Assembly: GCF_012516395.1 (NCBI RefSeq)
Contig: NZ_CP051206.1
Span: 1,842,501-1,906,500 of the forward strand
DNA length: 64,000 nucleotides
Direction: 5' to 3'
Origin: Dolichospermum flos-aquae CCAP 1403/13F
GTDB lineage: Bacteria > Cyanobacteriota > Cyanobacteriia > Cyanobacteriales > Nostocaceae
Below, piece by piece: positions 29,488 to 34,325 of the stretch. The notes beneath the pieces were generated by a model, which saw only the letters and a program-made list of their open reading frames with translations, was not told the origin of the DNA and searched no databases. The position numbers and the translations under genes were made by a program. Each line of letters opens with the position of its first letter. The stretch's first letter is position 1.

Positions 29488-30852
29488 ATGCCAGAAGCGT
29501 TAATTATTGGATTCGGAAAATCCGGTGTTGCTGCGGCAAGATTGTTGAAACAGGAAGGCTGGGAGGTTGAACTTTGCGATAGTAGCACCTCCCCAACCCT
29601 CCTCGAACAACAACAAAAACTCGCCAGTGAACACATTACCGTCAAATTAGGAAACACACCAGAATTCACCGATTCTGATATATCCAAGTTAATAATTGTC
29701 AGTCCCGGAGTTCCTTGGGATATTCCTATTCTAGCCAAAGCGCGAGAATTGGGCATAGAAACTATTGGCGAAATGGAACTAGCTTGGCGACATTTACAAG
29801 ATATCCCCTGGGTAGGAATCACCGGTACAAATGGTAAAACTACCACCACCGCCTTAACAGCGGCTATTTTCCAAACAGCAGGATTGAACGCTCCCGCCTG
29901 TGGTAATATCGGTTACGCTGCTTGTGAAGTTGCTTTATCTACGAAAAAACCAGATTGGATAATTGGCGAACTTAGTAGTTATCAAATTGAATCTTCTGTA
30001 ACTTTAGCGCCTCGTATTGGGATTTGGACAACCTTCACCCCAGATCATTTAGCCCGTCACAAAACATTAGAAAATTACTATAATATCAAAGCCAAATTAT
30101 TACATAATTCCCAAATCCAAATATTTAACGGTGATGATGTTTATTTGAGCAAATTAGGATTAAATCATTGGCCAAATGCCTATTGGACAAGTGTTAAAGG
30201 TCAAGAATTCTTAATTGGTGAAAAAGGCTTTTATATAGAAAATGGCTGGGTAATGGAAAAAATTACCACCACACCCCAACCCATTGTGGAGGTATCTGCA
30301 TTGCGAATGGTAGGGGAACATAACCAGCAAAATCTCCTCATGTCTGTGGCCGCCGCTAGATTAGCAGGTATAGATATTGCCGCTATTTCTCAAGCTGTCC
30401 GTGAATTTCCTGGTGTTCCCCATCGTTTAGAACATATCTGCAATTGGCAAGGCATTGATTTTATTAACGATAGCAAAGCCACTAATTACGACGCAGCCGA
30501 AGTCGGTTTAGCATCTGTGCAAAGTCCCGCCATTTTAATCGCTGGTGGTGAAGCTAAAGCGGGAGATGATAGCGCCTGGTTAGCCCAAATTCAAGCGAAA
30601 GCCGCCGCCGTCTTACTCATTGGGAATGCAGCACCAGCATTTGCTAAACGGCTGGAAGAGGTGGGATATAGTAATTATCAAATAGTCGAAACGATGGCAA
30701 AGGCTTTACCCATATCTGCGGAATTAGCCAAAAAATATCAAGCTTCAGTAGTATTATTATCTCCAGCTTGCGCTAGTTTTGACCAATATCCTAACTTTGA
30801 AATGCGGGGTGAAGACTTTCGGCAATTGTGTCAAAAGTATCTAGTATCGTAG
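29488..30852 (+). CDS. murD: UDP-N-acetylmuramoylalanine--D-glutamate ligase
   Basis: A 454-residue Mur ligase that adds D-glutamate to UDP-MurNAc-L-Ala in peptidoglycan synthesis. The N-terminal UDP-binding domain starts [20 protein letters not shown]. The ATP loop is [16 protein letters not shown]. The central domain has [11 protein letters not shown] and [22 protein letters not shown]. The C-terminal domain has [24 protein letters not shown] and ends with [25 protein letters not shown]. All expected Mur motifs are present. The gene is not in a division cluster here, as is usual in cyanobacteria. Confidence 0.96.
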
Positions 30853-31312
30853 GTTGGGTTGACACAAGGAAACCCAGCATTTGGCTTTGGTGAATGAAAA
30901 TATGGATTTATTTCACGCAGAGACGCAGAGACGCAGAGACGCAGAGAGGATGAGTAGCGTTGTAGGTTAGGTTGATGCAAGGAAGTCTAATATTAATCAA
31001 ATTTATATGTTTTTAGGACTTACGCACTATACAAATTAATCATTTTATGTATTGAAGGAAATACGTTGTTTCAGGCTTTCATTGATGATTACATTGATCG
31101 TAAACAGACAAGTATGGTAGGGGTTTAGCAGTGCTAAACCCCTACGAGGAACCTGATTTTTCACTAATATATATTCTGTTTTTTTTTGTCAATTCGTAAG
31201 TTATAGTTTTGATCTCTGTTCCCTTTCTTAACGAGTGAATTTAATTTTGTCCGACTACCTACTTTACTCATCTTATGTGCGAGAATTGTCCAAGAAGGTG
31301 TGAGAATATAAC
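30853..31312. other. Intergenic region with simple repeats
   Basis: It holds GTAGGTTGGGTTGACACAAG (30851-30870) and a near copy at 30961-30981, tandem GACGCAGA units at 30915-30941, and a TAGGGGTTTAGCAGTGCTAA palindromic block at 31119-31145. No gene is seen. A conflict-type operon starts at 31313. Confidence 0.55.
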
Positions 31313-31708
31313 ATGACAGACAAAAACTGGCAAGATGAAGAACTGTGGATTGTCACCGCAAGTAGTTCTGATAATGGTTCAAAACAAGGGATGAAAGCTG
31401 TTAGAGGTAATGGTAATCCTTACAGTAGTCCTGCGGTTACGGATGAAGAAATAAAAAACAGTCGCATTACAGCCGGCACCTTAGCGAAGCAAATGTCGCA
31501 CTTTGTGGGTGTAATCAGTGGTGTGTTTAGTAATGTTCAGAAGCAAGTCGAAACCCAAGGGGAACTCCAGCTTGATGAAATTACCCTCACGGTAGAAATT
31601 AGTAGTGAAGGTGAAATTAAATTACTGGGTACGGGTGTAAAGGCTGCTGGTAAGGGTGCAATTGAGCTAAAATTTAAGCGTTCATCACCCCAATCACCTG
31701 TAAATTGA
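31313..31708 (+). CDS. Small effector-coupling protein (Pepco/Trypco-like), partner of caspase
   Basis: A 131-residue cytosolic protein with no signal or membrane segment. The N-terminus reads WQDEELWIVTASSSD. The C-terminal half (QGELQLDEITLTVEISSEGEIKLLGTGVKAAGKGAIELKFKR) has the strand pattern and Gly-rich end of small domains found beside caspase-like or trypsin-like proteases in bacterial conflict systems (Pepco and Trypco1 types). That assignment is by resemblance only. The stop codon is seven bases before the caspase-FGE start, so the two are almost certainly one operon. The likely job is to couple a sensor to the protease; this is inference. Confidence 0.6.
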   Translation: MTDKNWQDEELWIVTASSSDNGSKQGMKAVRGNGNPYSSPAVTDEEIKNSRITAGTLAKQMSHFVGVISGVFSNVQKQVETQGELQLDEITLTVEISSEGEIKLLGTGVKAAGKGAIELKFKRSSPQSPVN

Positions 31709-31715
31709 CCGCAAT

Positions 31716-33596
31716 ATGGCTAAGAATTGCGCTGTTGTCATTGGCGTTAACGAATATGACGAAATTCAGTGCCTCCAGTATGCAAAAACTGATGCAGAAC
31801 GGGTGCGCGATTATTTTTCAACTGGTTTAGGTGTACAACCAAACTATCTATATTTTTTCTCTGATGATTCACCGCGCAACAGCCTGGGAAAGAAAACTCA
31901 ACCAACCTACGGTACACTAAACAGCTTTTTCAATGATCGCTTTGAACAGCCTTTTTTAGAATCTGGGGATACTCTCTGGTTCTATTTTAGCGGTCATGGG
32001 ATGCCCCACGAAGGACGAGATTATTTATTACCCATAGATGGAAATCCTCGCACTGTACCCAATTTAGCAATTCCCATTACCTACATCACAGAACGTTTGC
32101 GGCGCAGTGGTGCGGATAATGTAGTGTTGTTTATTGATGCTTGTCGCAGCACTGGTCAAAAAAGCGCTGGTTTGGGAATTGGTGAAGAAAAACAGCAAGG
32201 TGTAATTACCTTTTATTCCTGTAGTCCCAGTCAGGTTTCCTACGAAATTGAGGACATTCAACAGGGTGCTTTTACTCATGTATTACTCAATGGGTTGCAA
32301 ATTCAAGGTGAAAGCAACTGCGCGACGGTTGAACGGTTGTATAACTATTTGCGCTATCAAGTTCCCCAATTGACCCAAAAGCATAAAAATTATCCTCAGA
32401 CTCCCTATGCTGCCATAGAACCTGCTACAAAATTGCATTATATTTTATTGCCTAAATCTGCCACTGACAGGGATATTAGCACCCTCAGAGAAGATGCTAT
32501 GCAAGCAGAAATTGAAGGAAATTTTGATTTAGCTTTTCAGTTATGGGTGCGTGTGAACGTGGCCGCAGGTGGACAGGATATGAAAGCCATTGCAGCCTTT
32601 GGGAGATTGTCAAATAAGCAGAACCTAACCCCCCAACCCCCTTCCCTACCAGGGAAGGGGGAGAAATCAAAGCCTCTCTCCTCCCAGGAGAGAGGTTTGG
32701 AGAGAGGTTCTTCAGAAGCACAGGGACAGAAAATAGCAGTAGTAAAAGGCTCTGAGTTGACTGTAAATTTAGGTCAAGGCTTAACCCTGGAACTGGTGCG
32801 AGTGCCTACAGGGAAGTTTATGATGGGAATGCCCCCAGAAGAACGCCAAATAGCCCTAGAAAATGCCCTGAAATATAACGTAGAGCGTGAAAAGGCTGAA
32901 GAATGGTTAGACTGGTCTACCCCCCAGCATGAGGTGTATTTGCAAGAGTTTTTAATGGGCAAATATGCTGTTACCAATGCCCAATGGTACGCTGTCATGA
33001 AAACTAAGCCATCTGAGCAATATGATTCCGAGTTTCAAGGCGATAAGCAGCCTGTAATTGGCGTTTCCTGGCACGAAGCCCAGGCTTTTTGTGAAAAGAT
33101 ATCTGAACAAACAAAGCGGGCTGTCAGATTGCCCACAGAGGCAGAATGGGAATATTCCTGTCGGGCTGGAACAACTACAGCCTTTGCTTTTGGTAAGACT
33201 ATTACAACTGATCAAGTTAACTATAACGGCAATTATCCTTATGGTGATACCCCCAAGGGCAAATATCGAGAATGTACCGTAAATGTGGATAGTTTCACCC
33301 CTAACCCCTGGGGTTTATATCAAATGCACGGGAATGTCTGGGAATGGTGCTGGGATGAATTTCACGACAGTTATAGCGAAAAGCCAGCGCGTTTAAAAAG
33401 TAATGGCAATGAACCTTGGGGAGAATTAAAGGTAGTTAAAGAAGATAACCGTGCTTATATATGTCGGGGCGGTTCTTGGTACGGCAATGCTATCCATTGC
33501 CGTTCGGCGGTTCGTGACGGGGACCACGCGCGTCTTCAAGACACTCTTCTCGGTTTTCGTGTTGTGTTCGGGTCTTCCTCGCCAGGACTTTCTTAG
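31716..33596 (+). CDS. Caspase-like protease fused to a DGR-diversified FGE-sulfatase (C-type-lectin fold) domain
   Basis: A 626-residue protein. Residues about 1-250 are a C14 caspase/metacaspase domain with catalytic His94 in FYFSGHGMP and Cys143 in LFIDACRSTGQ. A helical stretch (about 258-300, DAMQAEIEGNFDLAFQLWVRV) follows. Residues 303-332 are a translated intergenic-type repeat (PPSLPGKGEKSKPLSSQERG). Residues about 345-620 form an FGE-sulfatase domain (RVPTGKFMMGMPPEE, VSWHEAQAFCEKISEQ, RLPTEAEWEYSCRAGT, NPWGLYQMHGNVWEWCWDEF, CRGGSWYG). The FGE fold is C-lectin-like, a classic DGR target. The 3' end (33465-33585) is a variable repeat. Ten codons (590, 594, 599, 601-604, 607, 610, 611) differ from the template 284 bases downstream. 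The protein probably binds variable ligands and triggers proteolysis; this is inference. Confidence 0.92.
   Translation: MAKNCAVVIGVNEYDEIQCLQYAKTDAERVRDYFSTGLGVQPNYLYFFSDDSPRNSLGKKTQPTYGTLNSFFNDRFEQPFLESGDTLWFYFSGHGMPHEGRDYLLPIDGNPRTVPNLAIPITYITERLRRSGADNVVLFIDACRSTGQKSAGLGIGEEKQQGVITFYSCSPSQVSYEIEDIQQGAFTHVLLNGLQIQGESNCATVERLYNYLRYQVPQLTQKHKNYPQTPYAAIEPATKLHYILLPKSATDRDISTLREDAMQAEIEGNFDLAFQLWVRVNVAAGGQDMKAIAAFGRLSNKQNLTPQPPSLPGKGEKSKPLSSQERGLERGSSEAQGQKIAVVKGSELTVNLGQGLTLELVRVPTGKFMMGMPPEERQIALENALKYNVEREKAEEWLDWSTPQHEVYLQEFLMGKYAVTNAQWYAVMKTKPSEQYDSEFQGDKQPVIGVSWHEAQAFCEKISEQTKRAVRLPTEAEWEYSCRAGTTTAFAFGKTITTDQVNYNGNYPYGDTPKGKYRECTVNVDSFTPNPWGLYQMHGNVWEWCWDEFHDSYSEKPARLKSNGNEPWGELKVVKEDNRAYICRGGSWYGNAIHCRSAVRDGDHARLQDTLLGFRVVFGSSSPGLS
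32621..32711. repeat. Intergenic-type repeat captured in the caspase-FGE linker
   Basis: The block contains CCCTTCCCTACCAGGGAAGGG and CTCTCCTCCCAGGAGAGAG palindromes, both common in cyanobacterial intergenic DNA. Here it is read in frame between the helical region and the FGE domain. Confidence 0.75.
33465..33585 (+). repeat. DGR variable repeat (VR)
   Basis: 121 nt at the 3' end of the caspase-FGE gene, from CGGGGCGGTTCTTGGTAC to CTTCCTCGCCAG. It aligns without gaps to 33870-33990. There are 14 mismatches, all at adenines of the template. The final ~34 nt (TCTCGG to TCGCC) contain no adenine in the template and are identical, as expected for the initiation-of-homing end. Confidence 0.95.
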
Positions 33597-33693
33597 CCCT
33601 TTACCCTCTTGCGCTTTTGCGCTCTTCTCTTTATTTCTTTACCCTTGCGAGCGCCAGCGAGCGAATTTTTTTTATTATATACATCTTCAAAAA

Positions 33694-33723
33694 TGTAGAG
33701 ACGTTCCATGGAACGTCTCTACA
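33694..33723. repeat. 30-bp perfect palindrome (copy 2)
   Basis: Identical to 6052-6081 in smc. It is located between the DGR variable and template repeats. Confidence 0.9.
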
Positions 33724-33839
33724 AAGGGTTTAATATCATCAAAAATCATTTGTTAAAGACTTGTAAACAATATCGCCGATTAATATTCGGATGTTGTAAA
33801 TTGAGGGTGGCTATCCTTGCTTATACTTCTTAGTATGTA

Positions 33840-34140
33840 TGGCACATAGCTTGGGGTTGAGTTATTAAACGGGGCGGTTCTTGGTACAACAATGCTATCA
33901 ATTGCCGTTCGGCGAATCGTAACAGGAACAACGCGCGTAATCAAGACAATAATCTCGGTTTTCGTGTTGTGTTCGGGTCTTCCTCGCCAGCACTCTCTAC
34001 AGTCAGAGTTGATAGGAGGGATTCTATCAAGCGTACACCAGAGAGTCCAAACTCAAACCCAGTGATGTGGGTGACTATATCCAAATATAAAACCGAGCCA
34101 GTTAGCTTGGTAGGGAAACCGAAGACTTGACTGGCTCAAT
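33840..34140 (+). ncRNA. Putative DGR template RNA with structured 3' spacer
   Basis: DGR template RNAs extend past TR into a spacer needed for cDNA priming. Downstream of TR lie TTGATAGGAGGGATTCTATCAA (imperfect hairpin, about 34009-34030) and the stem GAGCCAGT (34095-34102) with ACTGGCTC (34130-34137). The limits are approximate and transcription has not been shown. Confidence 0.5.
33870..33990 (+). repeat. DGR template repeat (TR)
   Basis: 121 nt, the non-coding donor of the variable repeat. It holds 27 adenines clustered in ten AAC/AAT codons in the frame of VR. Fourteen of these adenines are replaced in VR; none of the other 94 bases is. Immediately after the shared end the two copies diverge (GAC in VR, CAC in TR), fitting an IMH versus IMH* difference. 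Confidence 0.95.
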
Positions 34141-34325
34141 TCAAAAACATTTTCCTAGTACCATAGTACCGTAGGTTGGGTTAAGCAAAGCGCAACCCAA
34201 AATTTATTGATTAACACAAATAAATAAGCATCCTTATGGAAGTGCAAGTGTGAGTCAAAAAACTAGGGACACAACATTGTTATGTCCCTAAAAAAATCAA
34301 GTTTAAAAATTTTCGTTCATCTGGC

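Follow-up and report, generated by a model that had tools for sequence, protein, structure and literature searches.

A caspase-FGE cassette of Dolichospermum flos-aquae with the template, target and RNA of a diversity-generating retroelement, probably diversified in trans

A caspase-FGE gene with variable and template repeats

The stretch of DNA analysed here, referred to as the window, comprises 64,000 nucleotides of the cyanobacterium Dolichospermum flos-aquae CCAP 1403/13F (NCBI RefSeq assembly GCF_012516395.1, contig NZ_CP051206.1, positions 1,842,501 to 1,906,500 of the forward strand); unless stated otherwise, coordinates are those of the window. Its forward strand hosts a cassette (31273..34140, delimited by blastn homology to relatives) made up of a small gene for a Pepco-domain protein, a gene for a caspase-FGE protein, a template repeat (TR) and a structured RNA, the target-specific parts of a diversity-generating retroelement (DGR). 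The Pepco-domain companion has 131 aa (31313..31708; Pfam PF24393, E 1.1e-25). The 626-aa target protein (31716..33596) joins a caspase domain (PF00656, 3e-21, aa 5-231) to an FGE domain (PF03781, 1.5e-46, aa 359-617). Near the 3′ end of its gene, with the FGE (C-lectin-type) domain as judged by sequence, lies the variable repeat (VR; 33465..33585, target codons 584-624), and the TR (33870..33990) follows downstream; both were placed by their mutual alignment and by comparison with relatives.

VR and TR align over 121 bp without gaps and with 14 mismatches, and 14/14 of these fall on TR adenines (A>G 6, A>C 5, A>T 3). There are 27 adenines in the TR, and the other 94 positions match exactly; the program alignment agrees here with a sequence-only reading of the locus that preceded this analysis. 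If 14 mismatches were scattered randomly over the 121 positions, all would land on the 27 adenines with a probability of 2.6e-11. The pair is also entered in the repeat listing, as 129 nt at 88%. The changed codons are 590, 594, 599, 601-604, 607, 610 and 611, and codon comparison bears out the earlier count of ten affected codons, nine of them AAC/AAT in the TR; the exception is 602 (AGG). Adenines whose substitution alters a residue span 15 TR codons, which corresponds to 5.5e14 possible protein variants, with zero potential stop codons among them. The 14/14 signature and the Pfam domains support the proposal that VR and TR form the template-target pair of a DGR whose target is the caspase-FGE protein. 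When the DNA of TR plus RNA was searched against its own genome, the sole other match at E ≤ 1e-3 was the VR.

A structured template RNA behind the TR

The structured 3′ part of the template RNA occupies 33991..34137. Rfam family RF02921 (RT-14) matches it with 48.8 bits (gathering threshold 48.1) over model positions 1-144/144, and a model built in this work, R1, matches 33990-34138 with 141.8 bits, the window being one of the 15 training rows. Because the RNA sits directly behind the TR, RT-14 at the window reads, from its sequence context, as the 3′ part of a DGR template RNA; no such description of RT-14 was found in the literature, our coverage of which was partial. RT-14 RNA also adjoins a DGR reverse transcriptase (RT) in genome G058, and related RNA lies close to the TR in DGR loci of relatives. 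At the Rfam gathering score RT-14 finds few loci (3/60 genomes, a set different from the one in which R1 is counted below, and 0/5 of the RT-bearing loci of the genus), and R1 was therefore built. The RNA alignment (15 sequences, 13 of them from loci with an adjoining RT; G019 was left out, as was G020, which has an insertion) supports six helices: 95.0% of cells are paired, both sides have changed in 28/39 pairs, and 0/500 shuffles scored equally high. Slid controls of the covariation test gave far lower values.

Constant templates and adenine-confined variation in relatives

We compared the window cassette (genome G000) with copies in G005, which belongs to the same genus, and in G302, from a different genus of the family, and with further copies in Sphaerospermopsis aphanizomenoides BCCUSP55 (L159) and Trichormus sp. 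NMC-1 (L160). The TRs of G005 and G302 are identical to that of the window (121/121 bp). When each VR is aligned with its own TR, mismatches fall on TR adenines in 14/14 cases in the window, 12/12 in G005, 8/8 in G302 and 13/14 in Sphaerospermopsis. The window VR differs from the VR of G005 at 20 positions and from that of G302 at 17, every one of them a TR adenine. Among these three genomes the TR differs at 0/121 positions, the VR at 0/94 non-adenine sites and at 15-20 of the 27 adenine sites, so that adenine-only change in the VR beside a constant TR, which the sequence-only reading had named as the outcome that would support it, was seen in both G005 and G302.

The rest of the gene sets the scale for this conservation. 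Before the VR, the caspase-FGE genes of the window and G302 differ at 319/1686 positions (18.9%; 11.7% over the last 300 bp), whereas the same pair shows 0/121 differences in the TR, 0/94 at non-adenine VR positions and 17/27 at VR adenine positions. Given a divergence of 11.7%, the chance of 0/94 changes is 8e-6. Between the window and G005 the corresponding part differs at 44/1749 positions (2.5%), with 19 silent codons and 19 with a residue change, which suggests purifying selection on the target gene. The TR of Sphaerospermopsis has six changes, and its VR differs from the window VR at 4 non-adenine sites. This VR was evidently copied from its own TR, because it bears the new bases 69C and 78T of that TR and is mutated at the new adenine 76.

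Two other sources of the pattern were considered and rejected. Ordinary gene conversion would also have wiped out the adenine differences, and selection at the protein level would not have spared the non-coding TR and the silent sites of the VR. Judged from these sequence comparisons, the pattern is best explained by mutagenic homing that took place after the copies had diverged. The Trichormus copy, in which the caspase-FGE gene is split over two frames and there is no separate TR, is read as decayed.

Missing reverse transcriptase and Avd

The window genome is assembled in two contigs (5.22 Mb, 99.96% complete). A search with the RVT_1 hidden Markov model found four RTs in it, none of DGR type: two are group II-intron-like (by eye), one is of retron type and one is UG39-like. 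No DGR RT was matched in this genome by tblastn with two DGR RTs, nor at E ≤ 1e-3 by a profile of 13 DGR RTs, which as a control gave E 1.7e-195 in G005 and E 6.1e-197 in G058. Of Avd there is only a 27-residue remnant (G000:C1:1126964-1127044), 81% identical to the Avd of G005. The sequence-only reading had also taken the locus for a self-varying DGR; that it is a complete one was not supported, since neither a DGR RT nor an intact Avd was found in the window genome. Having no RT, the locus must have relied on an enzyme that came from another place or has disappeared in the meantime.

Two candidates for the missing enzyme were dropped. Near the 27-residue Avd remnant, tblastn with the G058 RT gave a weak match (45 residues, E 0.01) that did not recur at E ≤ 1e-3, and L004 (G000:C1:2716957) is a UG39-like defence RT, matched by its profile only from position 216 and lacking the start. 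The retron-type RT (L003, G000:C1:1004614) has RT-Protease_XI as its best PADLOC match and a weak McrB-like match at its C-terminus.

Near-full DGR RTs are present in 5/16 genomes of the genus (G002, G004, G005, G010 and G012), and Avd is found in the same five, the match in G002 reading through one stop. G005 encodes one intact DGR RT, 4.0 Mb from the cassette as the contig is laid out and 1.7 Mb if it is circular; that locus also includes Avd and a kinase-FGE target, a TR and an RNA of its own. A G005-type kinase-FGE target (96%) is found by a glyA-like gene in another genome (G009:C49:61242-66370), where the TR-Avd-RT stretch of G005 is missing. For G302, the best match to the DGR-RT profile is a 573-aa RT (E 1.1e-15), with nothing stronger, and a second RT of 322 aa has no match to this profile. 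Sphaerospermopsis has two intact DGR RTs on contigs other than that of the cassette (judging from the equal coordinates in G332 and G402), and the RT of Trichormus is truncated and has an internal TAG. There was no sign of a supply by phages: the 50 phage records that match at E ≤ 1e-30 all have <60% identity. On plasmid pANA02 of Anabaena sp. 90 (L193), avd, RT and FGE genes adjoin insertion sequence (IS) transposases; such a plasmid might be a mobile source of the enzyme.

Units without an adjoining RT across the order

Across 388 genomes of the order, R1 RNA was found in 114 and a DGR RT (E ≤ 1e-40) in 79; both occur in 73 genomes, the RNA alone in 41 and the RT alone in 6. The association has a nominal p of 1.3e-41, the genomes being related and most training rows of R1 lying beside RTs. 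We took the 130 strongest RNA loci, that is, the best R1 places down to E 3e-20. In 81 of them an RT (fragments included) lies within 3 kb, in 22 it lies elsewhere in the genome, and in 27 there is no RT in the genome, defined as no tblastn match at E ≤ 1e-40; 49/130 therefore have no RT within 3 kb. Eighteen of the 22 loci with an RT elsewhere are in genomes with a near-full RT, the others (G312 twice, G315 and G380) having fragments or a broken RT only. G109, G084 and G366 have a distant RT, not necessarily of DGR type, of 313-348 aa.

An adenine-specific VR partner was found for 10/22 loci with the RT elsewhere (8/18 where the RT is near-full), for 9/21 examined loci without RT in the genome (of the 27, G260:C457, G263:C11, G366, two of G368 and G370 were left out) and for 6/6 controls with an adjacent RT. 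The nine include L151, whose partner is 5.7 kb away, L141, which lies beside RT fragments, and L139, for which a longer alignment has 20 mismatches with only 11 at adenines; the first VR/TR scan missed two pairs that a directed search found. The distance between VR and TR is 314-536 bp in 15/19 pairs without an adjoining RT and 1.7-2.2 kb in 5/6 controls. One such VR-TR-RNA unit is found in G318 (L199).

Among the 43 loci without an adjoining RT, the partner is not adenine-specific in six (L143, L145, L146, L153, L208 and L213), and 18 have no partner. In six of the latter (L155, L200, L201, L204, L207 and L209) a TR-like stretch with 10-11 AAY codons (Y, C or T) precedes the RNA, and these may be stand-alone templates for remote targets. 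Eight (L142, L144, L150, L157, L158, L197, L203 and L212) have a VR-like stretch before the RNA, which could have arisen through a VR-TR recombination that removed the intervening sequence, and four are ambiguous. Nodularia spumigena CCY9414 has been described as having 70 copies of the DGR1 RNA region (PMC3610870).

Other features, edges and surroundings of the cassette

A conserved leader precedes the TR (33761..33869; TATACT at 33822-33827). It differs from the window at 3/109 positions in G005, 5/109 in G302 and 16/109 in Sphaerospermopsis, compared with 35.1%, 18.8% and 30.0% for the spacer between VR and TR, and is probably where the promoter lies and the template RNA starts; a sigma-70 scan upstream of the TR detected no promoter. 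The spacer of the window contains a 30-bp palindrome (TGTAGAGACGTTCC...) at 33694-33723, which is 30/30 identical in the G302 copy. A GCGC-TTTT-GCGC hairpin (33610..33623), 24 nt behind the VR, is kept in the window, G005 and G302 and is not present in Sphaerospermopsis; by analogy with phage BPP-1, it is a possible homing hairpin. The caspase domain of the target keeps GHG and DAC, presumably the catalytic pair. Within the linker between caspase and FGE domains, a 95-bp interspersed genome repeat (32622-32716) lies in frame; among the matches listed, it occurs at 83-96% in 15/16 genomes of the genus, and it is present in the linkers of the window, G005 and Trichormus proteins and not in those of Sphaerospermopsis and G302.

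Homology shared by the window, G005, G302 and Trichormus spans from ~40 bp before the Pepco gene up to the final RNA helix, with closely coinciding blastn limits in window coordinates (31272-34140 for G005, 31273-34141 for G302 and 31272-34139 for Trichormus). The surroundings are murD (by eye) upstream and a gene for an unknown 126-aa protein and a DUF1400 hydrolase downstream in the window, and genes resembling those for a glycosidase and a transporter (both by eye) in G302; a similar Rpn-like gene (46.2 bits, cut-off 52.1) lies 3′ of the cassette in G005, Sphaerospermopsis and Trichormus. In three genomes of the genus (G003, G007 and G015), murD is 77-85 bp from sequence that in the window is located past the insertion, and this junction looks like an empty site. 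A GTAGGTTGGGTT repeat at 30845-30860 and 34167-34182 flanks the insertion, its first copy lying where murD homology ends, and the two copies are possible recombination sites. Between the cassette ends, inverted or direct repeats were limited to 7-bp matches in the window and absent in G302; hence no transposon ends were found. No plasmid in our search had 80% of the cassette, the best having 25%. Beside the copies L011, L140, L159 and L160 no RT or Avd was found in the surrounding stretches examined (19.0 kb in G005, 16.0 kb in G302, 8.3 kb in Sphaerospermopsis and 14.3 kb in Trichormus).

Proposed explanation and its alternatives

We consider it probable that the window holds a non-autonomous DGR cassette which was diversified in trans, and that the enzyme has since been lost and the VR frozen in this strain. 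Such a cassette would bring the target-specific parts, namely the caspase-FGE gene with its VR, the TR and the structured template RNA, and no enzyme. A DGR RT and Avd encoded elsewhere in the cell would then use the RNA of the cassette, copying its TR and misreading adenines, and the resulting cDNA would replace the VR, so that as many as 15 FGE-domain codons are randomised anew. The caspase-FGE protein is probably a sensor of invaders that sets off cell death. The enzyme locus seems to have been lost from the window strain, with the 27-residue Avd scar left behind, and the last VR variant is probably frozen there until another RT enters the strain, for instance on a plasmid.

Several observations weigh against this explanation or narrow it. 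The TR plus RNA beside the G005 RT is only 74% identical to that of the cassette, so cross-use between the two is assumed. In Sphaerospermopsis, an insertion breaks the last helix of the template RNA (R1 scores 99.0 bits, and a separate piece of 18 bits follows 127 nt further on); this copy may therefore be dead although RTs are present, which weakens one of the two examples of trans action. The same copy has the single non-adenine VR mismatch (C41T), and its left side is off the contig, which begins at the gene. Compared with the window TR, the single VR/TR copy in Trichormus shows 27 differences, only 15 of them at adenines. At the 2.5% gene divergence from G005, the 0/94 changes are not telling as to when the VR became frozen, and an RT may be encoded on a plasmid absent from the assembly. 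The AlphaFold model of the caspase-FGE protein, from an alignment of 5, had a mean predicted local distance difference test (pLDDT) of 37 and was unused. As to the insertion in the Sphaerospermopsis RNA (L159 2268-2588), its ends are inverted repeats.

The plasmid just mentioned leads to an alternative that we regard as unlikely, an ordinary and fully active DGR whose RT is in the cell and was missed by the assembly. Cyanobacterial plasmids do carry DGR RTs, including pANA02 with avd, RT and two FGE genes. However, the two contigs are 99.96% complete, the stretches examined around the four other copies of the cassette showed no RT or Avd (that of Sphaerospermopsis being cut on the left), and the window genome has an avd scar without RT. 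More doubtful still is a relic, in which old VR differences arrived with the cassette and no homing followed the separation of the cassettes. It would fit the failure to find a DGR RT in the window genome or G302, the Trichormus copy with its split frame, missing TR and TAG-truncated RT, and the interrupted RNA of Sphaerospermopsis, yet it has to face a gene divergence of 18.9% beside 0/94 non-adenine VR and 0/121 TR differences, with 17/27 VR adenine sites differing all the same, as well as a Sphaerospermopsis VR that follows its own altered TR. That another host RT (retron type, UG39-like or of a group II intron) copies the TR RNA is highly improbable: the window genome does have four non-DGR RTs, but none of them matches the DGR-RT profile at E ≤ 1e-3, and the UG39-like frame matches even its own profile only from position 216. 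To our knowledge, adenine mutagenesis is established solely for DGR RTs.

Beyond the diversification in trans that we favour for the window, a wider and more tentative possibility is that VR-TR-RNA units without RT form a class of non-autonomous DGRs, related to complete ones as a miniature inverted-repeat transposable element (MITE) is to its transposon. These would be mobile sensor cassettes with defined ends that cross genera, are served by RT and Avd of the host or of a plasmid, and become fixed upon loss of the enzyme. Such cassettes may travel and work without an enzyme of their own. If templates often lie apart from the RT, as in the 49/130 loci, several sensors may depend on a single enzyme. 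The window strain, in which template, target and RNA but no enzyme were found, and its relative G005, which has an enzyme, make a natural test pair, and the locus raises the question of an FGE-caspase as a diversified trigger of cell death.

Comparison with known systems

Of the features of a DGR, the window has the adenine-confined VR/TR pair, the constant TR, the FGE target and the structured RNA; a DGR-type RT was not found, and of Avd only the remnant. Caspase-FGE targets, remote targets, plasmid DGRs and trans action are already in print (PMC7517822, PMC10907252), adenine mutation has been reported in cultured Nostoc punctiforme (PMC12691664), and proteins of this kind have been proposed as antigen sensors or conflict-system effectors (PMC10907252, PMC7159879, PMC8195603). 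Our literature searches turned up no account of template-plus-target units shared by different genera without an adjoining RT. The DGR surveys consulted start from the RT, and if templates and targets often live apart from it, self-randomising sensors of cyanobacteria are undercounted.

Vallota-Eastman 2020 (PMC7517822) describes cyanobacterial DGRs with remote targets, nearby transposases, locations on plasmids and, in Anabaena sp. 90, a remnant consisting of the RT only. The window cassette is like these in its VR/TR pair, its CLec target, the orthocaspase N-terminus and the filamentous host. However, those DGRs are defined by the RT gene, a definition that would leave out any VR-TR-RNA unit whose genome lacks an RT, whereas the window cassette comes with a TR and an RNA of its own and recurs without an adjoining RT.

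At the level of the protein, a small 5′ gene followed by a caspase with a variable C-terminal module recalls the two-gene EACC1-caspase conflict system (Kaur 2020, PMC7159879), although here the small gene encodes a Pepco protein and the C-terminal module is diversified by a DGR. The EACC1-associated caspase model scores 67.1 bits against a cut-off of 140, and the Pepco protein has no NCBIfam hit. The FGE-type domain with its variable C-terminus resembles TvpA of Treponema denticola (PDB 2Y3C; E 1e-18, with the C-terminal end aligned with the VR), but TvpA is an outer membrane lipoprotein (PMC10907252) and the window protein a caspase fusion. In genetic organization the cassette resembles the DGRs of Thiohalocapsa PB-PSB1 (Dore 2024, PMC10907252), where loci are incomplete, trans action has been proposed, and a target likewise has caspase-like as well as TIR domains and is proposed to be an antigen sensor. 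There, the VRs of DGR 4 and 5 match the TR of DGR 2; the window cassette, in contrast, keeps its own TR and RNA and, unlike the Thiohalocapsa DGRs, is shared between genera and lies in a host in which no RT of DGR type was found.

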